A stretch of DNA of 43,670 nucleotides. Origin: Desulfoluna sp. GTDB taxonomy: Bacteria; Desulfobacterota; Desulfobacteria; Desulfobacterales; Desulfolunaceae. The stretch lies in the NCBI RefSeq assembly GCF_030145185.1, contig NZ_JAQYWB010000049.1, positions 1 through 43,670 on the forward strand, given 5' to 3'. This document shows, in pieces, positions 2,675 through 31,441 of this stretch (positions are counted from its first letter, which is position 1; each line of letters starts with the position of its first letter). Made by a program: the position numbers and the translations under genes. The notes under the pieces are model-generated. The model was not told where the DNA came from, ran no database searches, and saw only the letters and a list, made by a program, of their open reading frames with translations.

Positions 2675-4108
2675 ATGAGCGGTCGTATTCTGATAGTCGA
2701 TGATGAAAAGGACATGTTGACACTGCTTGGCAGGATTGTTTCTGAAGATACGAATTATACGGCTGTCACGGAGAACAACCCGGAAAAAGCCCTTGAGATG
2801 TTGAGAGAGGAGCCCTTCGATTTGGTCATGACCGACTTGAACATGCCCGGGATGTCCGGGATCACCCTGATGGAAAAGGTCCGGGCGATGCGTCCAGATA
2901 TATCGGTGGTGATTCTGACGGCCTATGCCACCATTGAGACGGCGGTGGAAGCGACACGCAAAGGGGCAGACGATTATCTCACCAAGCCCTTTCGTCGGGA
3001 ACGGCTGCTGGTTACTCTGGATCGGGTGATGAAGTGCCAGCGGGTGGTGAGAGAAAACAGGCAGCTTCGCAAGGCCCTTGAAAAAAAGAACGATCTTTCC
3101 ATCATCGGATCCACGGCCTCCATGGCCGATGTGTTCCAGCGCATTCGGCAGGCAGCGCCCACCTCCGGCACGGTGCTGATTACGGGTCCCAGTGGCACGG
3201 GTAAAGAGCTGGTGGCCCGGGCCATCCACAAGAACAGCCGGAGGCGTGAAAAAAATATGGTGACGATCAACTGCGCAGCCATTCCTGAGAATATGATCGA
3301 AAGCGAGCTGTTCGGATACGTCAAGGGGGCCTTCACCGGGGCCGTGGTGGATAAGCCTGGCCTGGTGGAAGAGGCGCAAGGGGGGACCCTGTTCTTAGAT
3401 GAAATCGGAGACCTGAACCCTGGGTTTCAGACAAAATTGCTCCGGCTGCTTCAGGAAGGGGAGTACCGCCCCGTCGGCAGCGTTAAAACTCTGAAAGCAG
3501 ACCTCCGGTTTATTGCGGCCACCAACAAAAATCTGGAACAGGCCATGGTGGAAAAAACATTTCGGGCCGATCTTTTTTATCGCCTCAACGTGATTCGTAT
3601 GGAGATCCCTTCCCTTGGCGAGAGAAGGGAGGATATTCCCATTCTTTGCCATCATTTTTTTACCAAATATGCGGCACTCAATGGAAAGACGATTCAGGGG
3701 ATCGCGGCACATGCCCTCCAGGTGCTCAAGGAGAGGAATTACCCTGGCAACGTCCGGGAGCTTGAAAATATCATCGAACGGGGCGTCATTTTTTGCAACG
3801 GAGAGACCCTGACTCTTGCGGATCTGGGACTCGCCGGACCGAATCAGGGGTGTCTTCCCCGGATGAATTTAGAAAAACCTATGATGAGCTTTAAAGACGC
3901 CAAAGACGAAAATATCCGGACCTTTCACGACCTTTATATCCGTACTCTCCTGAAAGAGAGCGGCGGGAACATCAGCAAGGCCGCTGAAACGGCAGGGATA
4001 CAGAGGCAGTATCTTCACCGCCTGATGAAGGAATCGCACATTGAAGCCGATGAGTTCAGGGGCAAGAAATCGGATTCTGCCAAGGATCTTTTTCTGGTCG
4101 CTGGCTAA
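2675..4108 (+). CDS. Sigma-54-dependent response regulator (NtrC/AtoC type)
   Basis: 477-aa transcription activator and clear partner of the upstream kinase: the gap is 9 bp and there is a strong GGAGGA ribosome site. It has a receiver domain (1-120, phosphoacceptor D54 in MTDLNMPGM, K104), a AAA+ sigma-54 interaction domain (about 141-375) with Walker A GPSGTGKE near 171-178, the sigma-54 contact loop GAFTGA at 218-223 and Walker B GGTLFLDEIG near 236-245, and a C-terminal Fis-type helix-turn-helix (about 430-455, GGNISKAAETAGIQRQYLHR). All hallmark residues are present, so it should be an active enhancer-binding protein. Its targets cannot be read from the window, since no convincing sigma-54 promoter was found. 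Confidence 0.96.
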   Translation: MSGRILIVDDEKDMLTLLGRIVSEDTNYTAVTENNPEKALEMLREEPFDLVMTDLNMPGMSGITLMEKVRAMRPDISVVILTAYATIETAVEATRKGADDYLTKPFRRERLLVTLDRVMKCQRVVRENRQLRKALEKKNDLSIIGSTASMADVFQRIRQAAPTSGTVLITGPSGTGKELVARAIHKNSRRREKNMVTINCAAIPENMIESELFGYVKGAFTGAVVDKPGLVEEAQGGTLFLDEIGDLNPGFQTKLLRLLQEGEYRPVGSVKTLKADLRFIAATNKNLEQAMVEKTFRADLFYRLNVIRMEIPSLGERREDIPILCHHFFTKYAALNGKTIQGIAAHALQVLKERNYPGNVRELENIIERGVIFCNGETLTLADLGLAGPNQGCLPRMNLEKPMMSFKDAKDENIRTFHDLYIRTLLKESGGNISKAAETAGIQRQYLHRLMKESHIEADEFRGKKSDSAKDLFLVAG

Positions 4109-4731: not shown

Positions 4732-5002
4732 GATGCCACAGAGGGGACACGGGCTGTCCACAGTGAAGTGACATTGCTGAATGGTAAGTGTCCACCCACA
4801 GGTTTTGTCTGGTGTCTGTCTTCAGGAGAGTGACAGGAAAAAAGGTGTGCTTTACTCATTGAAATCAGGGGCCTACTGGGTTTTACTTCTTTTCTTAATT
4901 TGTTGGTACGCCTTTTGTAATAACTACTACAGAAGTGAACGTCGGCAAGCAACGTACCGGCTTCGTTATTTATAAGGAATGTTGATTCAGGAAGGAGGGT
5001 TT

Positions 5003-6073
5003 ATGCAACACACTATCTGGCAATGGATCGGAGATGAAGCCTTGCTGTCGCAAGCGTTATCCGCTCTGTCAACTCCGGCCTTGCTGGGCGTAATTGTCGT
5101 CTGCATCATTTTGCTGTCCAAAGGGGCGGATTGGATGATCGACGGCGTTGTTGACCTGGCAACACGGACGGGGATTCCCAAAATAGTAATCGGTGCAACG
5201 ATTATCTCTCTGGGAACCACCATGCCCGAGGCTTTTGTTTCCGTCATGGCGGCCTTCATGGGGAACCCTGGGCTGGCCCTTGGCAACGGGGTGGGCTCCA
5301 TCATCGCGGATACCGGTCTGATTTTCGGACTCACATGCATCCTGGCAGCGGTCCCGGTCAATCGGTTTATCCTTAACAGGACCGGCTGGGTGCAGGTGGG
5401 CTCTGCAACCCTTCTCGTTTTTATTGCCGTGGTTGTGTTTTTTACCTCCTCGGGCGCTCCGGTGATCGGTCGATCCATCGGGATCTTTTTTCTGATCCTG
5501 CTGGCGGTCTATATGTACGCCACCTTCATGTGGTCAAAGCATGGCTCCCTGCAGGGTGACGAAGAGGCAGACAGTGACGAGGGGGATGAAGCCGAGCTGA
5601 TGGGGCTCTTCCAGTGTTGGCTCATGGTCATCGGCGGTCTCTTCTTCGTTGTTCTCGGTGCCCGTATTCTGGTCCCGAGTGCCTCGGAGATCGCCCTGCG
5701 GTTTGGCGTGCCTGAAGATGTTATCGCCGCGACCATGGTGGCCTTTGGAACCTCCCTGCCGGAACTTATGACCGCCATTTCGGCGATCCGAAAAGGCTAC
5801 CCCGAAATCACCGTCGGCAACATCGTCGGTGCCGATGTTCTCAATTGCCTCTTCGTTATCGGAGCGGCTGCCACGGCCAAGCCCCTGGCCATTCCACAGA
5901 ATTTCTATTTCTTCCACTTTCCGGCCATGCTCATCATCCTCTGGTCTTTCAGGGCCTTTATTACGATGAACAAGGACGGCAAGTTTAAACGGGTACAGGG
6001 TTATTGGCTACTCGGCGTCTATATCAGCTATGTGGTGCTTCAGTACGCGTTGAATGTGAAATTACCGGCTTAA
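5003..6073 (+). CDS. CaCA-family Na+/Ca2+-type cation exchanger
   Basis: 356-aa polytopic inner-membrane antiporter of the CaCA superfamily (YrbG/CaxA-like), expected to swap Ca2+ or a related cation for Na+ or H+. Both signature alpha-repeats are visible: GATIISLGTTMPEAFVSVMA with GNGVGSIIADTG in the first half, and AATMVAFGTSLPELMTAI with VGNIVGADVLN in the second. The inverted-topology halves are separated by an acidic cytoplasmic loop (residues about 182-195, DEEADSDEGDEAE). The start is ATG 5003, preceded by a strong GAAGGAGGG site. An in-frame ATG at 4979 lies upstream of that site and is less likely. The TSUP gene follows 64 bp downstream. Confidence 0.93.
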   Translation: MQHTIWQWIGDEALLSQALSALSTPALLGVIVVCIILLSKGADWMIDGVVDLATRTGIPKIVIGATIISLGTTMPEAFVSVMAAFMGNPGLALGNGVGSIIADTGLIFGLTCILAAVPVNRFILNRTGWVQVGSATLLVFIAVVVFFTSSGAPVIGRSIGIFFLILLAVYMYATFMWSKHGSLQGDEEADSDEGDEAELMGLFQCWLMVIGGLFFVVLGARILVPSASEIALRFGVPEDVIAATMVAFGTSLPELMTAISAIRKGYPEITVGNIVGADVLNCLFVIGAAATAKPLAIPQNFYFFHFPAMLIILWSFRAFITMNKDGKFKRVQGYWLLGVYISYVVLQYALNVKLPA

Positions 6074-6137: not shown

Positions 6138-7178
6138 ATGACTGGACATGAAAACAAGAACATGGGCTGGGAAGTGGCCCGGGAGCTGGAGAAAGAGAAG
6201 CAGACCATCGCAGAGCGGTTTATTCCCGAGTGGCGCCATATCCGCGCCGCTCTGGGGGCTGTGTTTGTCTTTTTTCTGGTGTTTCTCCTGGGCATCTGGC
6301 TGGCAGGAAACCCCTTTGAGCCCACGGTCAGGATTCAGTCCGACTGGGTCGTCGCACACGGCCTTCAGGGAAACCAGTGGACCATCGTCTGGAGTGTGGT
6401 TCTTTTGGCCGCATTTTTTGAGTTCATGGACGCCTCTGCGGGCATGGGCTTCGGGACCGCGTTGACCCCGATCCTTCTCGTGATTGGCTTTGACCCCAAG
6501 CAGATCGTGCCGGTGGTCATGGTTCAACAGGGCGTGGCAGGCATTGTCGGTGCCTTCCTTCACCGGGAATTTGAGAACGTGGAGTGGAAGTTCAGCCCCA
6601 TGTCTGAAACCGTCCGGCTCTGGCTTATTATTGCGGTGACAGGATGTATCGCGGTGGCCATCTCCATCTGCGGTGTCTACAAATACCTCCATGTGGACAA
6701 GGTCTGGATCAAGCTCTATGTGGCATGCCTGCTTCTCATGATGGGTGTGATCTCCGTTTGGAGCGCCAAGAAAGACATGCCTTATAAACCGAATAAGATG
6801 ATCGGGTTTGCTGCCCTGGCTGGGTTCAACAAAGGGGTCGGCGGCGGGGGCTACGGGCCGGTTGTGACCATCGGTGGCCTTCTCTCCGGTGTGCCTGTCA
6901 AGAGTATGCTGGCTGTGACGGCTATCTGTGAAGGCACGGTCAGTACCTTTGCCATTGTTGTCTGGCTGGCGCTTCTCTCCAGCGGTGTTCAGATTGACTA
7001 TCTGCTGCTGCCGTCCATGATGCTCGCGACCATGTTCTCTGCGGTTGCGGCACCTTACATGACCCGCGTCTTCCCGGAAAAATTGTGGAAAATCATTGTC
7101 CCGGCTTACTGCCTGATCGTGGCTGTGCTCTGCTTCTACAAGATTATTCCAGGGATCTATGCAAAACTCGTCGGCTGA
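6138..7178 (+). CDS. TauE/SafE (TSUP) family membrane exporter
   Basis: 346-aa integral membrane protein with about eight hydrophobic segments and the TSUP-type repeat: AAFFEFMDASAGMGFGTALTP in the first half and GFNKGVGGGGYGPVVTIGG in the second. The family moves sulfite, sulfonates or sulfoacetate-type organosulfur anions. The substrate here is not readable. The N-terminal 35 residues are charged and cytoplasmic. An AAGGAGAG ribosome site precedes the start. It is co-oriented with the exchanger upstream and the Cys-rich membrane protein downstream. A GC-rich hairpin at 7227-7253 separates it from the latter, so read-through may be partial. Confidence 0.9.
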   Translation: MTGHENKNMGWEVARELEKEKQTIAERFIPEWRHIRAALGAVFVFFLVFLLGIWLAGNPFEPTVRIQSDWVVAHGLQGNQWTIVWSVVLLAAFFEFMDASAGMGFGTALTPILLVIGFDPKQIVPVVMVQQGVAGIVGAFLHREFENVEWKFSPMSETVRLWLIIAVTGCIAVAISICGVYKYLHVDKVWIKLYVACLLLMMGVISVWSAKKDMPYKPNKMIGFAALAGFNKGVGGGGYGPVVTIGGLLSGVPVKSMLAVTAICEGTVSTFAIVVWLALLSSGVQIDYLLLPSMMLATMFSAVAAPYMTRVFPEKLWKIIVPAYCLIVAVLCFYKIIPGIYAKLVG

Positions 7179-7253: not shown

Positions 7254-7342
7254 ACCCGACGGGATTTCGCGGTGCCGGGTTTGGAGAAGAACGAAAATGC
7301 CGGGCGGACAGCGGCCGGAGCTTGGATGAAAGGAGAGATGAA

Positions 7343-7840
7343 ATGAACGGCAACCCAATGGATCAGAGTCAGTATTTACGAAAACGCACCCACAGTATCG
7401 GGGTGAGCATGATTGTCATGGGGGGGTCGTTTTTCCTCTATTACCTTGGGCTTTTCGGAAATGTCCAGGGCCCGTTGACGCCGTCGACCCTCGGTGCTTC
7501 ATTGGCTGGGCTGGGGCTGACGAAGAAGCATATGCTCTTGTTCTTCCTTTCATTTTTTATAATGTCATTGATCTGGAATCATCTGTTTAACCTCACCGCT
7601 TTTGTGACAGGGGCTCGGCGGCGCTGCCTCGGCGAGGATGAGGAGGGCCATGTCTGTGGCGCGGTGACCCGGAAAATCAAGGGGATCTCTGCGATCGGTG
7701 AAAAGGTGGTTCAGTATGAATGCGCACAGGGGCATCTGTGCACCGAGGCTCATTTTGAGGCGGTGAAAAAAGGGGTGGTCAGCTATACGGTCACCGTTGC
7801 CGCCCTGATGTTTTGTGTCATCGTGATGTATTGTTCGTGA
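7343..7840 (+). CDS. Small membrane protein with a Cys4-type cytoplasmic segment
   Basis: 165-aa protein of unknown function. There are two N-terminal membrane segments (about 19-38 and 63-82) and one C-terminal segment (about 143-163). The loop between the second and third TM has a CxxxxxxxxxCG ... YEC-x4-C arrangement (residues about 94-136), which looks like a zinc- or metal-binding ribbon. The start chosen is ATG 7343 behind an AAGGAGAG site. The TTG at 7322 is in frame but has no site. The position after CaCA and TSUP genes suggests a transport-related accessory role, which is inference only. Confidence 0.7.
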   Translation: MNGNPMDQSQYLRKRTHSIGVSMIVMGGSFFLYYLGLFGNVQGPLTPSTLGASLAGLGLTKKHMLLFFLSFFIMSLIWNHLFNLTAFVTGARRRCLGEDEEGHVCGAVTRKIKGISAIGEKVVQYECAQGHLCTEAHFEAVKKGVVSYTVTVAALMFCVIVMYCS

Positions 7841-7987: not shown

Positions 7988-9718
7988 GTGATGTTTCACG
8001 TGATTAATAAATTCACGAAGTCATCTCTTCAGAATCGGAAGATACAAGCCATGTCTGACAGATCTTTTTTTACATTATCGGCACCCCGGGATTTTCCTTA
8101 TTATCGGAAAGTATGGAAAAGAGTGGTCGCTATTTTGACGCTTTCAGCTTTCCTGCCCCTGCTCGTCATCGGGGGGGGAATGTATTTTTACATGGCCGGT
8201 TCTTTGAAAACTAAGACGATCGATGCTCTGCAGGCCGAGGTGGTTTCTCATAAGAGGTCCATCGATTTATTTCTTTCCGAACGGATCATGGATTTAAAGT
8301 TTATTTCTCAGAACAACAACCTGGCCCAGATGGTGTCGCAGGACCGCTTTGATCGTATTTTTACCGCCCTTCAGCAGGAAAAACCCTATTTTGAAGACAT
8401 GGGCATCATCGGCAGTGACGGCAACCACCTTGCCTACATTGGGCCGTACGATCTCAAGGGGAAAAATTACCGCGAGACCCGCTGGTTTAAAATAGCGATG
8501 TCTGACGGGGTGTATGTCAGCGATGTGTTCACCGGTTTCAGGAATCAGCCCCATTTTATTATCGCGGTCAAGCGCAGGCAGGGGGAGGTCACCTGGATCC
8601 TCCGGGCCACGGTGGTCTCCGGATTGTTTGACAACATTGTGACCCGGGTGGCTCAACACCGGGACGGCGATGCCTATCTGATCAACAGCCAGGGGGTGTT
8701 CCAGACCAACCCGAGGAAGGGGGGCGGCTTGATGATGATATCTCAGGTACCGGTCCCCCAACGTTTTGAAGGCGTTCAGGTAGACGAGAAAGGCTCGGCC
8801 GTGACTCTGACCACCTGGCTTGAGGCCGTGCCATGGCTCAGTGTGGTGAGCATCCAGAAAAAAGATATTTTCAAAGAGCTGCACAAGGTGCGGACCACCG
8901 GTCTCTTTGTCGCCTTGCTGGGCGGATTTATCATTGTGTTGACCGTTCTTTTTACCACGGACAGCCTGGTGATGATGCTTGAGGATAAACGGAAAAATTT
9001 AAGGCGTCTGGACAATCGCCTGCGGACCACAGCCAGCTTTGCTTCCTCCATGGAGCTTTCAAAGGGCGTGTTCAGTGACCTGAATGATATCCTGTCAAAT
9101 ATTCACGTAACCGCTATACTGGTGAACGAGGAGGTGGGCCATGCCAGCGTGAGCGAGACCTGTTTTATCACAAACCAGATCCTCACGGAGTCCATCCGAG
9201 GGCGCAACCTGATCGACAGTTTTTTAAAGTTTGTCGGGACGGAAGACCCGGTGATTATGGAGGTGGATGTTCATCTGATCTTGGACCGGATCCTTGGCTT
9301 TCTAAAGGCCTCCCTCATTGAAAAGAATATGAGTGTAGTGGCTCATTGGGGAGAAGGATGTCCTGCTGTGAGAAGTGACGGGACGGCGCTGCGTCAGGTA
9401 TTTCAGGATCTTTTACTCAATGCGGTGGCGGTTACCGGGGCAAACGGGGCCATCGGCGTCTCCACATCCGTTACAGCCTCCAGTGTCGTGGTTTCGGTCT
9501 CCGATGCGGGGCTTCCGTTGCAGGAGGCAGAGGTCTCCCAGCTTTTTGACCCGCATTACTCCACGGGTCGTGGGGATTCAAGTCTGGGCCTCTCTATCAG
9601 CCAGCGTATTATGGAGAGGCTCGGAGGGAGCCTGACGGCCAAAAACGGGGAAGAACAAGGCGTGGTGTTTGAGATTGAGATCCCGAAGGAATTTATGAAG
9701 GAATCGTTGAAGGCGTAA
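7988..9718 (+). CDS. Cache-domain sensor with degenerate (pseudo) histidine kinase
   Basis: 576-aa membrane sensor. TM1 is about 46-69, the periplasmic double-Cache-like domain about 72-300, and TM2 about 303-323. The Cache part is clearly homologous to the protein encoded at 12325-14037 (shared LAYxGP(Y/F)DL, KNYxET, VxDxFxGFR, WILRATV, YL(I/V)NSQG). The kinase part has lost key residues. Aligned to the paralogue's [10 protein letters not shown], the acceptor His is Ser363 (GVFSDLNDIL). The first N-box Asn is Asp474, G1 is DAGLPL (second Gly to Pro510), and G2 reads DSSLGL. It should therefore not autophosphorylate by the normal route. The start used is GTG 7988; ATG 7991 or ATG 8051 are alternatives. 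The stop is 5 bp before the GNAT/HDAC gene, so the two are probably translated from one message. Confidence 0.88.
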   Translation: MMFHVINKFTKSSLQNRKIQAMSDRSFFTLSAPRDFPYYRKVWKRVVAILTLSAFLPLLVIGGGMYFYMAGSLKTKTIDALQAEVVSHKRSIDLFLSERIMDLKFISQNNNLAQMVSQDRFDRIFTALQQEKPYFEDMGIIGSDGNHLAYIGPYDLKGKNYRETRWFKIAMSDGVYVSDVFTGFRNQPHFIIAVKRRQGEVTWILRATVVSGLFDNIVTRVAQHRDGDAYLINSQGVFQTNPRKGGGLMMISQVPVPQRFEGVQVDEKGSAVTLTTWLEAVPWLSVVSIQKKDIFKELHKVRTTGLFVALLGGFIIVLTVLFTTDSLVMMLEDKRKNLRRLDNRLRTTASFASSMELSKGVFSDLNDILSNIHVTAILVNEEVGHASVSETCFITNQILTESIRGRNLIDSFLKFVGTEDPVIMEVDVHLILDRILGFLKASLIEKNMSVVAHWGEGCPAVRSDGTALRQVFQDLLLNAVAVTGANGAIGVSTSVTASSVVVSVSDAGLPLQEAEVSQLFDPHYSTGRGDSSLGLSISQRIMERLGGSLTAKNGEEQGVVFEIEIPKEFMKESLKA

Positions 9719-9723
9719 CGCTC

Positions 9724-12087
9724 ATGATATTGAAACGGGAACATATCAAACAGGCTGTGGATGCCATCGGCAAGAGACGGCCGGAGATCGCTTATACCCT
9801 CAATATCATGTTGGGGAAGGGTAGGATCGACGTGCCTTGTGCATCCGAGGCCTCGGAGGAAAAAAGACCGTATTTTTTATTCTCCGGCCGGAAAGCCTTT
9901 GTCAACAAGTACCAGTTTTTTAACGACGGAACCGCCCCGGTCGAGCAGGCCCTGTTGCTCTTTTACGGAGAGATGGCCCAGAAGCGCGCGCTGCTCCATC
10001 AAGAACCCGAGGGAACGCCCGGAAAACATGCATCTCAAACCGATACGGCCGGTCTTTCCCTGGTGATAGACTATGAAATCGATCGTGCCGCGGCCGACCT
10101 GAATCATCGCATCGCCCTGGCCCGTCAAAAAGGGGGGGAGACCGAGGGGAGCCCCCGGGTGGATTTATTGACCCACAGGCTTCAGCGGCTCGAGATGATT
10201 CGATCCGTCGATACCTTGGATGAGGGGTTTCGGCATGCCTCCGATGACCCCCCGACTCTTTTTCGGGGGGTCATCGGCGATGAGACGAAAGCCATGTTTA
10301 TGAGCTTTCCGTTTACACGGAACAGCCTGATGCAGTCCGCACGCCTCAATCTGGACTATTTCCATATTCGTTTTCTTTTGAATTGTCTTATCACCGGCAC
10401 GGAGAAGCTGCTGTTTGCCGGTGTCGCCGGGGAGGCCCTCCAGGGTCTGATCTTTCTTGAATTGTTGACGAAGCCTTTTTACCAGAGCCTTGAGGTCAAA
10501 TACATCGCGACGCGGGGTGGCTTGCCGGAGGGCAGCGGCATCCGCTCGATGAAAGGGACGGGGACCTTTATCATGGCCTCCACCTGGATGCTTTGGAAGA
10601 GCCGGTTTCCCAATGTAAAAGAGCTTTCTCTGGACTCGGAGATTGAAGCCGAACGCTTTTACTCATCCATTGGGTTTCATCGGAGGGGGCTCTACCGATG
10701 TGTCCTGACCTCCCCGGAAGGGAGGCTCCTCACCTCCATTACCGCCATGTCCGCCTTTTCGAAAAAAAGGTACCCTTCCATTACCCACTCACTGTGCAAC
10801 AGAGTGGCCGGACAGGTGAAGCTTCTCAGGCGAAGAAAAACGATGAACGGGAAGCGAAGCACGGCGCGTGAGTTTCTGAAAATTGCGATTCATCCTGCTG
10901 GGTCGGACCTGCTGGCCCGGACCACGGTGCGGCTGCTGATGAAAAACAGGTCCCGCATCCCTGAGGGCGAAGCGCTGTTTGCCCTGGCGAAGGCCTTCGG
11001 TCGAACGGCCACGCAGTCAGGCCACGGGGGGGACTCCATGCCGGTTGCGGTGGTCACGGACCGGCGATATCGGAATCATCTCCAGGGCATCGCACATCTT
11101 GAAAACTACCGGCGGATTAAGGCGGTGGAAGATGTCTTGAGTCACCGTTGTCTGGATGGGCACTGGTTCGGGATTGCCCCCCGCCTGGCGGAAATATATG
11201 AGCTGACCTGGGTGCATACCCCGGAGTATGTGGCAAAGGTGGCAAACACGTCGGGAAAAAAACTTTCTGCCTTTGACTTTGATACCCAGACGACGGAAGA
11301 GTCCTGGGCCACGGCCAGGTTGGCGGCAGGAGGGCTCTTTTCTCTTTTGGACGCCATTATGTCCGGCATGGCGCGACGGGGTTTTGCCTTTATTCGGCCT
11401 CCGGGACACCATGCCTTGCCCTCGCGGAGCATGGGGTTTTGTATTTTCAACAACGTGGCGTTGGGGGCACGGTATCTCAAGCACCGATACGGGGTCTCGA
11501 AGCTGATGATTATCGATATTGACGCCCATCACGGCAACGGCACCCAGGAGGTGTTTTATGACACCGATGAGGTCCTTTTTGTCTCTATCCACGAGTCGGG
11601 TTCGTTTCCGGGCACGGGGCGGGTTGAAGAGACCGGCCGGGGAAAGGGGGAAGGCTATACCATCAACATTCCCCTGGGCAAGGGGAGCCGGGCACGGGAC
11701 ATCGGAAGGGCGCTCTATTTTATGGCCGGACCGGTGGCGCAGGCCTATGAACCGGAGATGATCCTTGTCTCTTTTGGGTTTGACCTTTTTATTCATGACC
11801 GGCTGGCCGGCATGAAGGTGACGCCCAATGGCTATGCCATTTTAACCGCGCTTCTCCTGGAAATGGCGGAACGCCTGGCAGGGGGCCGTATTGCCTTTGT
11901 GATGGAAGGGGGCTACAGCATTGACGGGATTCGCAAATGTGGGCTTGAGGTGATGAAAGAGGTCTGCAACGTGTCGAGTGTCAGTCGGGAAAAAGTCGAT
12001 AACATACGTAAAAGTGACCTCCGCAGCCTGGCAGGCCTTAAAACCGTGATCAACACGCATAAAAAGTATTGGGAGGTCCTCCAGTAG
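9724..12087 (+). CDS. GNAT-like acetyltransferase / histone deacetylase-family fusion
   Basis: 787-aa predicted soluble protein. Residues about 435-745 form an HDAC/AcuC-type zinc deacylase: RPPGHHA at 558-564, GFCIFNN, DIDAHHGNG at 598-606 (metal ligands D600 and H602), D687 in SFGFD (usual SAGFD), and catalytic Tyr731 in EGGY. The set is complete. Residues about 215-330 look like a GNAT fold C-terminal half (MKGTGTFIMAS, then AERFYSSIGF), so an acetyltransferase is likely but less certain. The N-terminal 200 residues are unassigned. ATG 9724 begins 5 bp after the pseudokinase stop. A terminator follows at 12143. If both domains work, one polypeptide could add and remove acyl groups on a protein or small molecule. 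The substrate is unknown. Confidence 0.85.
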   Translation: MILKREHIKQAVDAIGKRRPEIAYTLNIMLGKGRIDVPCASEASEEKRPYFLFSGRKAFVNKYQFFNDGTAPVEQALLLFYGEMAQKRALLHQEPEGTPGKHASQTDTAGLSLVIDYEIDRAAADLNHRIALARQKGGETEGSPRVDLLTHRLQRLEMIRSVDTLDEGFRHASDDPPTLFRGVIGDETKAMFMSFPFTRNSLMQSARLNLDYFHIRFLLNCLITGTEKLLFAGVAGEALQGLIFLELLTKPFYQSLEVKYIATRGGLPEGSGIRSMKGTGTFIMASTWMLWKSRFPNVKELSLDSEIEAERFYSSIGFHRRGLYRCVLTSPEGRLLTSITAMSAFSKKRYPSITHSLCNRVAGQVKLLRRRKTMNGKRSTAREFLKIAIHPAGSDLLARTTVRLLMKNRSRIPEGEALFALAKAFGRTATQSGHGGDSMPVAVVTDRRYRNHLQGIAHLENYRRIKAVEDVLSHRCLDGHWFGIAPRLAEIYELTWVHTPEYVAKVANTSGKKLSAFDFDTQTTEESWATARLAAGGLFSLLDAIMSGMARRGFAFIRPPGHHALPSRSMGFCIFNNVALGARYLKHRYGVSKLMIIDIDAHHGNGTQEVFYDTDEVLFVSIHESGSFPGTGRVEETGRGKGEGYTINIPLGKGSRARDIGRALYFMAGPVAQAYEPEMILVSFGFDLFIHDRLAGMKVTPNGYAILTALLLEMAERLAGGRIAFVMEGGYSIDGIRKCGLEVMKEVCNVSSVSREKVDNIRKSDLRSLAGLKTVINTHKKYWEVLQ

Positions 12088-12142
12088 GGATCCCGAACTG
12101 TCATATGGTACTTTCCACCCCTGTCTCCTCTGTGATGACAAT

Positions 12143-12169
12143 GCCCGTGAATGCACGGGCTTTTTTTTT
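12143..12169 (+). terminator. Intrinsic terminator after GNAT/HDAC gene
   Basis: A perfect 7-bp stem GCCCGTG / CACGGGC with loop AATG is followed directly by nine T. It ends the pseudokinase-GNAT/HDAC transcription unit 56 bp after the stop. Confidence 0.95.
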
Positions 12170-12324
12170 GCCTTCTGTTATGTAAACGATGATATTTTCG
12201 AGGGTTGTCACGAAATGGCATGGAGGGCTCTGTCTGGCACGCTTGTTGTAATGCTTGTTGTATTGAACGGATAAAGAATCAGCCGGCGGAATGTTTACTT
12301 CATCATGTCCATGGGGGGGGCTGC

Positions 12325-14037
12325 ATGACTCAATACTCAGAAAGCAGAAAACAGGCACATTATTCCCGTCTCTTTCGTCGGTTTATTTTTCTGACCATGA
12401 TCTGCTCTCTGGTTCCCCTTCTCTTTGCTGGCTGGGCCATCAATATCCATTATTCACGGTTTGCCAGAGAACGCACGATGAACACCCTCTGCACCCGGGT
12501 TGATTATCACAGGAAAATTATTGAACTTTTCTTGAAGGAAAATCGGGACAGACTCGATTTCATCGCGCGCACGCATTCCAAGTCCAGCCTGGTTGAAGAG
12601 GGCCAGCTCACGCAAATTTTAGAAAATGTGAACCGCGATTCCTGGATCCTCACCGATATAGGCATCATCGATGATACCGGGGAGCACCTCGCCTATGTCG
12701 GCCCGTTTGATCTGATCGACAAAAATTATTCCGAAACCATCTGGTTCGGAGAGGTGATGGAGAAAGGCATTTATACCAGCGACATGTTTATGGGGTTCAG
12801 AAAAGTACCGCATTTTGTCATGGCTGTGGCACGGCATGAAAACGGCCGGTGCTGGATATTGAGGGCCACGGTCAACACGGATCGGTTTCGGTCCCTGGTG
12901 GAGAACATCAGGTTGGGCAAGACCGGAGATATCTATCTGGTGAACAGCCAGGGCCTCTATCAAACAAGCCTCGGGTCAGGTGGGGAGATGATGACTCCGG
13001 CTCCTGGATTTGACGGCATCGCGCACCCCCATTCGAAACCGGAGTGTTATGAAACCACCGGCAGGGGGGGGGACCAGCGGATTGTCTGTGAAACCTGGCT
13101 GGAGGATCCCCGGTGGCTTTTGGTGGCGAGCCAGGGGAAGGCCGAATTGTTTAAAGAGGTTCGTTATGCTAACAGGGCGTCCCTGGTGTATTTGCATCTC
13201 AGTGCATTGATTATTTTAATTGTCACCATCTTGATTACCCGGCACATGGTTTCGGTGATTAAAAAAAGAGATCTCGAGGTTGAATGCATGAACCTTCAAC
13301 TCATGCATGCCGGGAAAATGGCCTCCATCGGTGAGCTTTCAGCAGGCGTCGCCCATGAGATCAACAATCCCCTTGCCATCATCATGACGGAACGCCAGCT
13401 TTTGCTGGATACGGAACAAAGGGCTCGCATCACAGATGAGGTCTTCAGGAAACAATTTGAGGATTCTCTGAATCAGATTAACATCCAGGCACGTCGGTGC
13501 AAGCACATTACACGAAGCCTTTTACGGTTTGCCCGAAGGACACGCTCCGATATCGAGACCGTGGATGTGAATCAATTTATTAAAGAAGTGATCGATCTGA
13601 TGGAAAGGGAAGCCAAATCGGACGGCATCAAGTTTGTCGCGTTGCTGGAGGCCACCCTGCCGTCCATTTTGTCGGATCCCTCACAGCTTCAGCAGGTGTT
13701 TTTGAATATTATCAACAACGCCATTGAGGCCCACGAAGAAAAAGCCTGCGGTGTGATTACTATTACGACGGCTTCTGCCAAAGATCAGAGCGGGATCGTC
13801 GTCACCGTCGAAGATACGGGCACGGGAATCCAAAACAGCGATATGGGAAAAATTTTTGATCCTTTCTTTACCACAAAGCCTCCGGGAAGGGGCACTGGCC
13901 TGGGGCTCTCCATCTGCTACAGCATTGTCAAGCAGCTTGGAGGGCTGATTCACGTGGAAAGCGAAGCCGGAAAAGGGGCCGCTTTTATTCTGGAGCTGCC
14001 GTTGACCCCTCCCGAAGAGCGGGTGAAGAAGGGATGA
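12325..14037 (+). CDS. Cache-domain histidine kinase (paralogue of the 7988 protein)
   Basis: 570-aa sensor kinase from ATG 12325. TM1 is about 22-42, the periplasmic Cache domain about 45-285, and TM2 about 290-312. HisKA follows with H344 ([11 protein letters not shown]), then an HATPase domain with intact N-box ([11 protein letters not shown]), G1 (DTGTGI), F-box (FDPFFTT) and G2 (GRGTGLGLS). All catalytic motifs are present, unlike its paralogue two genes upstream. The frame is open to 12205, but 12325 starts just before TM1 with a short basic tail. It is preceded by an eight-G tract (12313-12320) that overlaps the expected ribosome-site region. A receiver-only protein follows and is its probable phosphotransfer partner. 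Confidence 0.9.
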
Positions 14038-14089
14038 ACTCGACTCCGTTTTAATTGACTGGGGAAGGTGACGTTAAAAAAAGAATCGA

Positions 14090-14131
14090 GGGGAGACGAA
14101 AAGCCGATGCACATGGCTTGGAGGCTCTCCC
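14090..14131 (+). other. Potential structured leader before the receiver gene
   Basis: An outer stem GGGGAGA / TCTCCC (14090-14096 with 14126-14131) encloses a hairpin AAGCC / GGCTT (14101-14105 with 14115-14119). It sits in the kinase-receiver interval, where no other function is visible. No known riboswitch consensus was recognised. Confidence 0.3.
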
Positions 14132-14225
14132 TGGTTTTCGATGCCCCTAAGGCGCGAGGTAAGTGTCGATGTTTTTTAGGGTCACCCATGTTGACCAACC
14201 CTTAATGAAGGAAAGGAGATGGCCT

Positions 14226-14675
14226 ATGATAGGAAGTAAAATACTATTGGTTGATGACGAGGAAATTTTTGCTAATAATATGGCGAAACTTCTCGAAAAC
14301 AGGCAGTACAAAGTCACGGCGGTCTACAATGGAGAGAGTGCCATAAGCGCTCTTGAAGACGACAAATTTGACGTCGTTGTCCTGGATCTTAAGATGCCGG
14401 GGATGGATGGACTGGCAACCCTGAAACAGATCAAGCAATTGGGGCTTCTTACCGAAACACTTCTCCTGACCGGCCACGGTTCCATTGATGCTGCCGTTGA
14501 AGCGATTCGTCTCGGAGCATACGATTTTCTCACCAAACCCTGTGAAATCGACGACCTTGTCGAAAAGATCGAGGGGGCGTGGAGAAAAAAAGATGACGCC
14601 TGGAAAATAGATATGGAGGGAAAACTGAAAAAACTTGTGGAATCACCCTCATCCGTTTTTGATTTGTTTGATTGA
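14226..14675 (+). CDS. Stand-alone receiver-domain response regulator
   Basis: 149-aa CheY-like protein consisting of one receiver domain (1-120; acidic pair D10/D11, phosphoacceptor D54 in VVLDLKMPGM, switch Thr in LLLTGHG, Lys104 in TKP) and a short charged C-terminal tail (about 120-149). It has no DNA-binding or enzymatic output domain, so it probably acts by protein contact. ATG 14226 has an AAGGAGAT site 5 bp upstream. The longer frame from 14163 lacks one. It follows the Cache kinase after a 188-bp interval that can fold (14090-14131) and ends at a strong hairpin terminator. Confidence 0.92.
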   Translation: MIGSKILLVDDEEIFANNMAKLLENRQYKVTAVYNGESAISALEDDKFDVVVLDLKMPGMDGLATLKQIKQLGLLTETLLLTGHGSIDAAVEAIRLGAYDFLTKPCEIDDLVEKIEGAWRKKDDAWKIDMEGKLKKLVESPSSVFDLFD

Positions 14676-14724: not shown

Positions 14725-14782
14725 ACAAATCGTGCTGGCCTCGGAATTCTGCCTGAGGCAGCCCGGTTTGTAGACTTTTTTT
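14725..14782. terminator. Terminator between receiver gene and convergent hybrid kinase gene
   Basis: A long imperfect stem (ACAAATCGTGCTGGCCTC with GAGGCAGCCCGGTTTGT) is followed by a seven-T run at 14776-14782. The T-run serves the plus-strand receiver gene. The hybrid kinase converges from the other side with its stop codon at 14781-14783, inside the same T-rich end. Confidence 0.85.
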
Positions 14783-17279
14783 ATTTATCCAGCAGAACCC
14801 GCAGCAGGATCTCCTTGAAATCCGAAAACCGGTAGGGCTTCACGGCAATGGCTTTGATGCCGTGCTCTTCATAATTCGACATGATGGGATCGCTGGCGTA
14901 GCCGCTGGAGAGGATGATTTTAGCCTGGGGATCCATGGCGAGAATCTTCTCTGATGTCTCCCGTCCCCCCATCCCTCCGGGAATGGTCAGGTCCAGAACC
15001 ACACAGTCAAAGGGCTTCCCTTCCGCCTGTCGTTTTCGATAGGCTTCTACCGTTTCATGCCCCTCCACGGTGAACGTCACCCTAATTCCCAGCTTACGTA
15101 AAATGGTCTCCAGGATTTTTCGGATCACCGCCTGATCGTCTAGAACGAGAACGTGTGCCTCAAGGGCATGGGTGTCGATATAATTCTCCAGCCTCTCTTC
15201 CAGCGGCTCTTCAATGGGTTTTGTGGCGGCAGGAAGGGAGAGGGTGAAGGTGGTGCCTTTTCCCAACTCCGAATCCACGGCGATGGTTCCGTTGTGCTTG
15301 GCGACAATGGCGTAGGTGGTGGCAAGGCCCAGCCCGCTGCCTGTTTTTTTTGTGGTGAAGTAAGGGTCGAAAATTTTATCGAGGTGTTCCGGGTCGATGC
15401 CGGTTCCGGTGTCCTGGATGGTGATGCGGACCGTGCGGCCGGAAGGCGCCTGTGCATTGCATGCGGTCAGGGAAATCACACCTCCGGTAGACATGGCCTG
15501 GTGCGCGTTGATGACCAGGTTCCCGACAATCTGGCTGAGCTGCCCCTTGTCGGCGGAGACGGGCCACAGGTCGTCATCAATGCTGGTTTCCAGGCGTGCG
15601 TTAAGCCCTTGCGCGGCGAAGGCGGCGGCTTCGGCCAGGGTTTTCCCGGCTGCGATGACTTTCCTTACAGGCTGTTCGTTTTTTGAAAAGGTGAGAAACT
15701 GACCGGTAAGCGCCACGGCCGCCTCCATGGATTCCTCGGCCGATGCGAGATAATCCATGGCTTCATGTGTTGGCGGCAGTGCCATCTTCGCCATGGAGAT
15801 GTTGCCGTAAAGCCCGGTGAGCAGATTGTTGAAGTCGTGGGCGATGCCTCCGGCGAGGATGCCCAGGGACTCCAGTTTTTTCACCCGAAGAAGGTCCTCT
15901 TCGGCTTTCATTTTATCGGTAATATCCTTGAAAATAATCACAATACCGATGGCTTTTCCCGTTTCATCCCGGATGGGGGCAAAGTTATAGCCTATCCGAT
16001 ACAACGACTCGTTTCGTGAGATCAGCATGGCTTCGGTGGTCGTTTTATCCTTATCGCTGAGTTCATCGCCGGTGAATTCAGGAAGAGAGATCGGCTGGTC
16101 TGTGTTGCGGTCCTGAAGCCGGAAGACGTCACGGATGTCTTTTCCTTCGGCATCTTCCAGGGGCCATCCCGTTAGATTCTCCGCCGCTGCGTTCAGGCGA
16201 GTGACCTTTCCGTCTGTGCCCGTGGTGATGACCGCATCTCCAATGGAGTCCAGGGTGATGCGCAGGTTCTCGTTGTTTTCCCGGATCTGTTGGGTCTGTC
16301 TGCCGACCTGTTGTCTCAAGCTGGTCGTCCAGGCCCAGAGCAGGAAGATAAGGGAGAAAACGAGTCCCGTCCCGATTTGAAGGCTGATGCGCAGGGTTTC
16401 CGGCAGGGTGACTTCACCGGTACTGACCCATCGGCGGTAGATGGCCTGTCGCCGATTTGGTTCGATTTGATCCACTATTTTTTCGAGAATGCTGAAGAGC
16501 TCCGGGTCGTCAAGGGAGGTGGCCAGGGCCAGCCGGTTGCGAAATTGCGTCTGGCCGGCAATCTGGAGATTGGTGAGTCCCAGATTTTCGATCAGGTAGG
16601 AGGCCTCCATCTGGTTGATGACCATGGCGTCACAATTCCCTGAGGAGACCTCATGAAGGCCTTTGATGCTGGTTTTTACTCCGATGGGGGTGATGTGGGG
16701 GTAGTATCGCGTCAGGTCGTCATTGACGGCATAGTTGGTGACCGCGCAGAGTTTTTTTTCGGCAAATTCCGGGATGGCTGTGCCCTGAGTGGTTTTTCGC
16801 GTGACGATGGCGTAGGGCACTTTGACGACGGGGTCGGTAAAGAGAAGGTAGCGGGCGCGCTCATCGGTGCGGTGGATCCCCAGAAAGATGAAGTTTCGGT
16901 TCGTCCTGGCGTGGTCGAGGAGCTCATTCCAGCGGGTGAATGCTTTGATGGGCAGGTTGAGGCCCAGTTGTTTTTCAATTTCTCTCAGGTAGTCCACAAA
17001 AAAGCCGTCATAATCTCCGGCTTCATCATGGAAGACGTAAGGAGGCAGGCCATCTTCAAGAAGAATCGTCAGGTCTCCCTGATGAGCTTTAAGCCAGTGG
17101 TGCTCTTCGGGTGTCAGGGAGAGAGCGTCATCCATCCGGCAGGACAGGGCGAAAAACAGGATGAGGATCGCCGCAAGCAGGTATCGAAGGGGCCATCGAA
17201 TGACCCGGTGTGAGGGAAAGCCCGGCATAGTGTCTATTGTCCATAGGGTGTGAGGGTCTTTTCCTGATGAGATTACCAC
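14781..17279 (-). CDS. Hybrid sensor histidine kinase with periplasmic solute-binding domain
   Basis: 832-aa one-piece sensor (EvgS/BvgS-like layout). The N-terminal TM or signal anchor is about 28-46. The periplasmic SBP_bac_3-type domain (about 55-290) begins with the typical LTPEEHHWLKAH. TM is about 300-318, PAS about 340-455, HisKA with H481 (GGIAHDFNNLL), then HATPase with DTGTGI and KTGSGLGL, and a C-terminal receiver (about 708-830) with D763 in VVLDLTIPGG. The binding domain would sense an amino-acid-like or other small ligand. No DNA-binding partner lies next to it. The start is GTG 17279; ATG 17228 (residue 18) is equally possible, and neither has a strong ribosome site. Monocistronic. 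Confidence 0.9.
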   Translation of the reverse strand: MVISSGKDPHTLWTIDTMPGFPSHRVIRWPLRYLLAAILILFFALSCRMDDALSLTPEEHHWLKAHQGDLTILLEDGLPPYVFHDEAGDYDGFFVDYLREIEKQLGLNLPIKAFTRWNELLDHARTNRNFIFLGIHRTDERARYLLFTDPVVKVPYAIVTRKTTQGTAIPEFAEKKLCAVTNYAVNDDLTRYYPHITPIGVKTSIKGLHEVSSGNCDAMVINQMEASYLIENLGLTNLQIAGQTQFRNRLALATSLDDPELFSILEKIVDQIEPNRRQAIYRRWVSTGEVTLPETLRISLQIGTGLVFSLIFLLWAWTTSLRQQVGRQTQQIRENNENLRITLDSIGDAVITTGTDGKVTRLNAAAENLTGWPLEDAEGKDIRDVFRLQDRNTDQPISLPEFTGDELSDKDKTTTEAMLISRNESLYRIGYNFAPIRDETGKAIGIVIIFKDITDKMKAEEDLLRVKKLESLGILAGGIAHDFNNLLTGLYGNISMAKMALPPTHEAMDYLASAEESMEAAVALTGQFLTFSKNEQPVRKVIAAGKTLAEAAAFAAQGLNARLETSIDDDLWPVSADKGQLSQIVGNLVINAHQAMSTGGVISLTACNAQAPSGRTVRITIQDTGTGIDPEHLDKIFDPYFTTKKTGSGLGLATTYAIVAKHNGTIAVDSELGKGTTFTLSLPAATKPIEEPLEERLENYIDTHALEAHVLVLDDQAVIRKILETILRKLGIRVTFTVEGHETVEAYRKRQAEGKPFDCVVLDLTIPGGMGGRETSEKILAMDPQAKIILSSGYASDPIMSNYEEHGIKAIAVKPYRFSDFKEILLRVLLDK

Positions 17280-31081: not shown

Positions 31082-31441
31082 ATGAAAATGAGATGTGCTG
31101 TGTTTATTGTGCTGATGGTGGCCGGTTTTGTCCGGGTCTCCTTTGCTGAGCGGAGCCCCTTTGAGGTGCCTGCCGTGTCGAAGGATCGTTACAATTATGC
31201 GGAGGCTCTGAAGGAGGTCACCCTTAAAGGGGTTGTTTCAACGGAAAAAGGGGGCTGTGCGGTTTTTGAGAGAGGGGGGACGGAAGGGGAGGCAGAGGCC
31301 TCGATGTCTATCTATAAGCTTGGAGAAAAATTAACGGTAGTCCGGGATGGCCTTGAGCATGATTTCAGAGTTGTCTCCTTCGACGGCAAGGTCGTTCATC
31401 TTACGGCCGAAAATAAAGAGCATTTTGAGGTGACGCCATGA
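31082..31441 (+). CDS. pilP: PilP-like exported protein
   Basis: 119-aa protein with a signal peptide (about 1-22, cut after SFA) and a small beta-rich domain (about 40-115; LKGVVSTEKGGCAVFE, YKLGEKL, DHDFRVVSFDG-like strands). It matches the PilP/GspC homology-region pattern that contacts the secretin. It lacks the usual PilP lipobox. ATG 31082 is chosen because it gives a clean signal peptide; the ribosome site is weak. Its stop overlaps the secretin ATG (ATGA). Confidence 0.75.
   Translation: MKMRCAVFIVLMVAGFVRVSFAERSPFEVPAVSKDRYNYAEALKEVTLKGVVSTEKGGCAVFERGGTEGEAEASMSIYKLGEKLTVVRDGLEHDFRVVSFDGKVVHLTAENKEHFEVTP

Follow-up and report, generated by a model that had tools for sequence, protein, structure and literature searches.

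A conserved gene module of the Desulfobacterales places a pseudo-histidine kinase directly before a GNAT-HDAC fusion enzyme

The window analysed here, the whole 43,670-base stretch formed by a contig of Desulfoluna sp. (NZ_JAQYWB010000049.1), carries four co-oriented genes on its forward strand, called D, E, F and G, which encode a membrane pseudo-histidine kinase, a fusion enzyme with a GNAT-like and a histone deacetylase (HDAC)-type half, an intact Cache histidine kinase and a single-domain response regulator. The original prediction had described these genes as one signalling unit, and a search of related genomes revealed that the neighbourhood is not unique to the strain: it recurs as a conserved module across 15 families, with a pseudokinase that has lost its phospho-acceptor histidine usually lying directly before the fusion enzyme. 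The best explanation, to which we give slightly less than an even chance, is that the module wires two-component phosphotransfer to reversible lysine acetylation, with D as a DivL-like regulator of E.

The open reading frames (ORFs) at 7988–9718, 9724–12087, 12205–14037 and 14163–14675 correspond to the four genes as they had been predicted. D (7988–9718, +) contains dCache_1 and HATPase_c and no HisKA domain by Pfam. Its dCache sensor domain (PF02743) covers residues 87–258 (8246–8761, +), and its HATPase_c domain (9377–9688, +; PF02518, E-value 2.1e-16) has altered G1 (DAGLP) and G2 motifs in the motif table. The phospho-acceptor position of D is occupied by Ser363 (codon 9074–9076, +), aligned with His384 of F (codon 13354–13356, +), which bears out the claim of a dead kinase core. 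F (12325–14037, +; ORF from TTG at 12205) has dCache_1, HisKA and HATPase_c by Pfam, and the two Cache sensors are indeed paralogous, D and F being 31% identical over D residues 32–572 (E-value 1.8e-77). The stop codon of D (TAA) ends at 9718 and the ATG of E (9724–12087, +) lies at 9724, leaving the predicted 5 nt between the two genes. G (14226–14675, +; ORF from GTG at 14163; phospho-Asp D75 codon at 14385–14387, +) has the receiver as its only Pfam family over the cut-off, so that a receiver-only protein does stand behind the live kinase. The true starts of D, F and G are probably the inner ATGs at about 8051, 12325 and 14226.

A profile search with the GNAT half of E (profile A2) found it in 47 of 389 sampled genomes of the order Desulfobacterales, belonging to 23 of 150 genera and 15 families; in a phylum-wide sample it was present in 3 of 395 genomes, one of them outside the order. 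As the profile was built from module members, re-finding the module was partly expected, but the search was aimed at E only. These 47 genomes together with G439 gave 48 loci, counted by genome, with L003, L004 and L005 not counted beside G652, G706 and G569; the loci are related by descent, and counts over them are not independent. The usual gene order is TauE permease, small membrane-type protein, receiver-CBS (a CBS pair on a receiver domain), D, E, F and G. D lies directly upstream of E in 45/48 loci, namely 43 with the two genes within 600 nt plus G495 and G554 by profile labelling; three of the 45 D (G706, G529 and G695) are pieces at contig ends, one of which matched at only 23 bits. The spacing between D and E is often 0–20 nt, with 4-nt overlaps in several loci. 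The three loci without D before E are one at a contig end (G534), one with degraded remnants (G749) and one in which D is truly absent (G459; L206, 4169–7332), the last of these being a module that is complete but for the pseudokinase and so represents a natural knock-out. In all 46 readable, non-degraded loci, E is preceded by D, receiver-CBS or both. A second copy in G027 (L218, C234, 6468–8955), outside the 48 loci, is a decayed D-GNAT-HDAC array without receiver-CBS, F and G, in which three overlapping D fragments (64–173 aa) stand directly before a 486-aa GNAT half and a 77-aa HDAC stub; it offers a natural pseudogene to contrast with the conserved copies.

The module was absent from five same-genus and two same-family genomes. 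For four genes of the contig (E, the TauE permease, the gene at 31438 and a T2SS-F gene), the five same-genus genomes contain no close relative, a pattern that fits horizontal acquisition and mis-binning alike, so the window contig may have arrived by either route. The reality of the module is independent of the provenance of this contig.

The residue at the acceptor position is not His in 41 of the 42 D in which the column could be read (G582 and G554 included; the remaining three of the 45 are the pieces cut by contig ends), being S, R, E, Q, A or L instead, and the sole D with His, from G598, lacks the N, G1 and G2 motifs. All 36 orthologues of F, a set chosen by a score over 800 bits, have the acceptor His. 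D thus lacks the acceptor His in the DHp helix that defines a canonical histidine kinase. The predicted His-to-Ser change holds across relatives as a loss of His, while Ser itself is not conserved. Ser363 was also considered as a family-wide alternative phospho-acceptor and rejected, as the position is occupied by R, E, Q, A or L in relatives; judged from the alignment, its phosphorylation is unlikely to be a shared mechanism. The ATP-binding motifs give a different picture from the acceptor column. Among 40 D, the N box is intact in 35, G1 in 31 and G2 in 21, with all three (and G1 and G2 both) intact in 21, which makes the missing His the lesion common to the D family. The altered G1 of the window D is absent from its near relative G652, whereas a similar kind of G2 alteration is found throughout the window's clade (all 11 members); the altered motifs are therefore real in the window and do not extend to the family as a whole. 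A link between erosion of the ATP lid and loss of receiver-CBS is real within one clade, where 11/11 D have a changed G2, and was discarded because that clade counts as one event in the phylogeny; a changed G2 also occurs in eight D with receiver-CBS kept (G057, G439, G679, G598, G595, G726, G703 and G685).

D is nevertheless under selection. Pairwise ratios of non-synonymous to synonymous substitution rates (dN/dS) ranged from 0.12 to 0.39 over 15 pairs, with dS near saturation for the pair of the window and G652, and were similar to or somewhat above those of E and above those of F in most pairs. For the kinase-like domain of G595, G726, G703 and G685, which are without N, G1 and G2, dN/dS was 0.21–0.29 in four pairs, suggesting that the fold of D is kept without catalysis. 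In an unrooted tree of 38 D, 12 of the 36 F and 13 outgroup Cache kinases, F and the 12 genuine outgroup kinases lay on one side of a 100/100 branch and D on the other (D under 330 aa and G461_D, G651_D, G582_D and G554_D were outside the tree). The thirteenth outgroup member, L128, was an ORF chosen in error, with a branch length of 8.85, and was set aside; with L128 kept, two changes are scored for D. The topology is consistent with a single origin of D, the root not being known. The loss of His in 41/42 D, the 100/100 branch and the dN/dS values together indicate an old, selected pseudokinase line and not a strain accident. Random decay of the core in relatives, which would have undermined the original prediction, is ruled out by the dN/dS values, the single tree split and the conserved gene order that accompanies the loss of His.

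Nine D are only 344–365 aa long, and the seven of these whose sequence was inspected have no Cache domain between their two hydrophobic stretches, which lie close together. The N, G1 and G2 motifs are also gone from five of the nine (G595, G726, G703, G685 and G598). The proposal that both sensors see the same ligand class is thereby weakened as a general rule. Since short or motif-less D still stand directly before E and show low dN/dS, sensing, ATP binding and phosphorylation appear not to be indispensable to the D-E linkage, and a scaffold or allosteric role of D finds its strongest support here, although catalysis is possible in lineages that keep the ATP site. A DHp and HATPase fold is predicted for D, and the model resembles many histidine kinase cores, with DivL (4q20) among the matches at rank 24; in keeping the kinase fold, replacing the His and being conserved by selection, D matches what characterizes a DivL-like protein. 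In the D inspected, a short cytoplasmic N-terminal motif like DFPYYRxxW (8051–8130 in the window) precedes the first hydrophobic stretch, mostly also in sensor-less forms, and may be a docking or targeting signal.

The predicted fusion of a GNAT-like with an HDAC half was borne out by different means for its two parts. Pfam assigns no family over the cut-off to the N-terminal half of E, where it gives only a weak GNAT match (E-value 0.2). A structure model of residues 1–430 (mean predicted local distance difference test score, pLDDT, of 71) gave GNAT-fold acyltransferases as the best PDB matches among those listed, led by 7rb3 (E-value 3.8e-4), with only two matches reaching an E-value of 0.001. 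The model thus supports a GNAT fold (residues 178–345; 10255–10758, +), from which acetyltransferase activity is predicted. The C-terminal half is a class II-like HDAC domain (residues 458–745; 11095–11958, +; Pfam Hist_deacetyl, E-value 4.5e-84), in which the residues H562/H563, D600, H602, D687 and Y731 are invariant in 6/6 aligned fused E; by sequence it has the D/H/D zinc ligands, the His pair and the catalytic Tyr of a zinc deacetylase. Its best solved matches are HDAC6, followed by the class II-type HDAC15 and HDAH, and no class I HDAC occurs among the best 60 of 137. E forms one chain in 37/48 loci and separate adjacent pieces in eight (one being the degraded G749), and is unreadable in three, so the fusion unites two enzymes that can also be encoded by adjacent genes.

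Candidate targets were sought in the 48 neighbourhoods with three queries (the acyl-CoA ligase L217 from the window's own genome, an ADP-forming acyl-CoA synthetase and an acetyl-CoA hydrolase), and no recurrent match to acyl-CoA ligases was found; full-length matches were limited to G057 and G749, and short partial ones to G703 and G726. In G057 (L137:13712-18947), F is neighboured by a fusion of an ADP-forming acyl-CoA synthetase with a GNAT domain and by an acetyl-CoA hydrolase/transferase, and the acetyl-CoA hydrolase type is also found near the degraded module copy in G749.

E might instead act on polyamines or similar small molecules, turning over their acetyl groups, with the signalling genes only co-regulating it. 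Some HDAC-family enzymes are polyamine deacetylases (PMC11532494), and no protein target was seen in the neighbourhood with the queries used. The gatekeeper position of E speaks against this: it is Leu, DRLAG aligning with DPLGG of HDAC6 catalytic domain 2 (CD2), and not the Glu of the PEG motif in HDAC10 (PMC11532494). The absence of this Glu weighs mainly against an HDAC10 type of enzyme, bacterial polyamine enzymes being able to lack it; HDAC10 itself stands further down among the solved matches. We consider this account improbable.

The catalytic residues of the receiver domain are kept in both G and receiver-CBS, and in G the acidic pair, Asp75, Thr103 and Lys125 are conserved in at least 90% of 37 orthologues. 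The receiver-CBS gene lies upstream of E in 32/48 loci, with D between them in all except G459, its identity resting on Pfam scans for four proteins and on a profile for the remainder. It is absent in eight loci with enough upstream sequence, all in the clade of the window, and unreadable in seven; the G749 locus is degraded. Of 131 matches to receiver-CBS in the window's genome, each covers the receiver or the CBS part and none covers both, and no ACT domain match was found in the four proteins scanned with Pfam. By analogy, receiver-CBS could be a functional counterpart of AcuB, the CBS-ACT protein of Bacillus. An open frame of 226 aa elsewhere in the window's genome (G000:C54:7459-7614) gives a CBS match and is close to AcuB in size.

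The place of D in most loci, directly between receiver-CBS and E, also suits a dedicated phosphatase for receiver-CBS (or for G) that responds to the Cache ligand, E being merely co-expressed. Most D retain an acidic residue at +1 and an Asp at +4 relative to the lost His, at positions that we take to be near the place of the HisKA phosphatase motif; 21/40 D have the N, G1 and G2 motifs, and the G2 motif is changed in 11/11 of the clade that lost receiver-CBS. Yet known HisKA phosphatases have Asn or Thr at +4 where D has Asp, five loci keep receiver-CBS though their D has lost N, G1 and G2, and the tight adjacency of D and E is left unexplained. A phosphatase role of this kind seems unlikely.

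D could also act by heterodimerizing with F and modulating it, as the ChrS pseudokinase does with HrrS. The two are paralogues of the same architecture, and ChrS sets a precedent for heterodimers of pseudokinase and kinase (PMC9491836). D, however, travels with E rather than with F and shares only 31% identity with F, which in some genomes is unlinked or on the other strand, and nine D are too short for the Cache domain that F has; on balance we consider this improbable. The window's genome contains a second cluster of Cache kinases and receivers (G000:C21:78351-94780), and similar-scoring Cache kinase pairs occur in same-genus genomes.

The consensus of sigma54-dependent promoters at −24/−12 is TGGCAC-N5-TTGC(A/T), and sigma54-type promoters are here pattern matches against this general consensus. 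The pattern TGGYAYN5TTGNW has two matches in the 43,670 bases, where 0.55 are expected and 11 of 100 shuffles reach two. One (4904–4919, +; TGGTACGCCTTTTGTA) belongs to a first unit opened by a Na+/Ca2+ exchanger gene (4979–6073, +; PF01699, E-value 1.7e-57), which occurs in the same gene order in G021 and G027. The exchanger is followed by the TauE/SafE permease (6138–7178, +; Pfam E-value 1.4e-21), which recurs upstream of the module in other loci, and by the small membrane-type protein C (7322–7840, +), which has a Cys/His-rich stretch, no Pfam family over the cut-off and orthologues at the same place in other loci. The other match (12235–12250, +; TGGCACGCTTGTTGTA) precedes F and G. Across the loci, at least 8 of 11 positions agree upstream of F in 36/36, and at least 9 in 28 (16% and 3% in shuffles), the match in G057 being poor; upstream of TauE, 17/26 score at least 8 (11.5% in shuffles). 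Far fewer reach this score upstream of D (8/33), receiver-CBS (10/31), E (11/45) and G (3/37). In the window, E is followed by an intrinsic-terminator-like hairpin (12143–12160) with a T run (together 12143–12169, +), the only such hairpin in 35 same-strand E-F gaps.

Given this hairpin and the promoter match at 12235, D-E and F-G are probably not one operon. Transcription of all four genes together was rejected, since a sigma54-type match stands before F in all 36 loci and, in the window only, the hairpin follows E. The simplest reading of the sequence is two sigma54-type units, [exchanger]-TauE-C-[receiver-CBS]-D-E and F-G. Both could possibly be driven by the NtrC-type sigma54-dependent response regulator encoded at 2675–4108 (+; Pfam receiver and Sigma54_activat), for which the adjoining Cache-PAS histidine kinase (488–2665, +; Pfam HisKA, HATPase_c, PAS and a weak dCache_1) is the probable sensor. 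Kinase and/or receiver ORFs also lie upstream of the module in some other loci by profile labelling. The module extends past coordinates 7988–14675, to which the original prediction had confined it; the four genes described there are confirmed, and the receiver-CBS gene of 32 loci and the sigma54-type promoters were missed. On the other side of G, a convergently oriented hybrid kinase (14781–17279, −), which combines an SBP_bac_3 sensor with PAS and a receiver at its C terminus, was not seen in the module of relatives.

The wiring that we infer, including who phosphorylates whom, the contact between D and E, the sign of control and the acetylated target, would run as follows. F would sense an extracytoplasmic cue and phosphorylate the stand-alone receiver G. 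D, not phosphorylatable on His, would remain in the membrane for docking and switching: it would read the phosphorylated receiver (G, or receiver-CBS where present), as DivL does with DivK~P, and would then change the activity or location of E, which is made directly behind it. Because E carries an acetyltransferase and a deacetylase on one chain, such a switch could set the acetylation level of target proteins, for which the analogy to AcuA/AcuC and Pat/LdaA suggests AMP-forming acyl-CoA ligases as possible candidates. In loci that have it, receiver-CBS may contribute adenylate sensing. The earlier proposal that the pseudokinase controls or tethers E fits the D-E adjacency and the 4-nt overlaps, the control itself being the inferred part. 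A further step, which would make the module a new type of signalling output in bacteria, that an old pseudo-histidine kinase lineage has turned into the regulatory subunit of a writer-eraser enzyme, so that a phosphorylated receiver sets acetylation directly without transcription, with a possibly adenylate-binding receiver-CBS sharing the input in most lineages, is one we offer tentatively and with more doubt than belief.

Several observations weigh against the link between phosphotransfer and acetylation. In G459, receiver-CBS, E, F and G occur without D, and E begins 6 nt after receiver-CBS. The N, G1 and G2 motifs kept in 21/40 D would be dispensable for a pure scaffold, and D is under weaker constraint than F in most pairs. 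D and E are tied to F and G more loosely than D is to E: only 36/48 loci have an F orthologue over 800 bits near E, F is on the opposite strand in G057 and at a distance of 63 kb in G703, and for G029 and G611 the nearest Cache kinase shares only 39–40% identity with F. The likeness of receiver-CBS to AcuB is no more than that of CBS proteins in general, and an ACT domain is not seen. With the three queries used, no consistent acetylation target adjoins the module. AcsA, the obvious target, was dropped as a candidate, being unsupported both in the neighbourhoods and in the window's genome, where several AcsA-family matches occur and none is over the family cut-off.

Phosphotransfer and lysine acetylation are two large post-translational systems of bacteria, and the module, present in many families of a single order, would offer a natural and testable connection between the two; phosphate signalling may thus control reversible protein acetylation in many sulfate-reducing-type bacteria. 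The control of acetyltransferases and deacetylases is only now being worked out (AcuB, 2026), and no description of a unit like this one was found in the literature searched, most subscription journals lying outside that search. The D proteins form a graded series, from full-length forms with ATP motifs through full-length forms with an eroded ATP lid and sensor-less forms with motifs to sensor-less forms without them, which could show what a dead kinase is for. If the proposed role of D is true, the loss of the Cache sensor and, in some lineages, of all ATP-binding motifs would mark the steps by which a histidine kinase has turned into a pure scaffold.

Parts of the module can be compared with known systems. 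In ChrS-HrrS of Corynebacterium, a live kinase is modulated by a paralogue without catalytic activity, as F would be by D in the heterodimer reading; that case is a laboratory-evolved frameshift in the CA domain, unlike the old loss of His in D, and involves no acetylation enzyme. The RpPat/LdaA pair of Rhodopseudomonas combines an acetyltransferase with a zinc deacetylase acting on acyl-CoA ligases (PMC6640162), making these ligases a candidate target class for E; RpPat and LdaA are separate proteins, and two-component genes are not mentioned in the part of that paper drawn on here.

In acuABC of Bacillus (GNAT AcuA, CBS-ACT AcuB and HDAC AcuC), as in the module, an acetyltransferase of GNAT fold (a likeness of fold only) and a deacetylase are encoded together, alongside a CBS protein (in 32/48 module loci). 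AcuB binds the deacetylase AcuC and inhibits it under adenylate control (PMC13121692, PMC13039410), and the two reports disagree on Ap4A, which strengthens the AcuB-AcuC interaction in one account and abolishes it in the other. The module differs in that a single chain usually carries both GNAT and HDAC, the HDAC, judged by its solved matches, may be of another class (class II-like) than AcuC, which has been placed in the same cluster as class I HDACs (PMC11532494), and the CBS pair sits on a receiver domain with no ACT detected and is absent from the window block. It also adds two kinases and a receiver, and has no AcsA next to it. Membership in acuABC was rejected, two defining features, the AcuB-type CBS pair with ACT and an adjacent acsA, being missing.

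The closest parallel for D itself is found in the DivL-DivK-CckA pathway of Caulobacter. DivL has Tyr at the acceptor position and PAS domains and acts towards the kinase CckA, whereas D has varied acceptor residues and a Cache sensor or none, and adjoins a GNAT-HDAC enzyme. Both have a histidine kinase fold with the acceptor His replaced and with ATP binding weak or dispensable, and in both cases a single-domain receiver and a live kinase belong to the same pathway. DivL binds DivK~P without kinase or phosphatase activity of its own, as a sensor of the phosphorylated receiver (PMC4211667), and by this analogy D would bind a phosphorylated single-domain receiver as DivL does.

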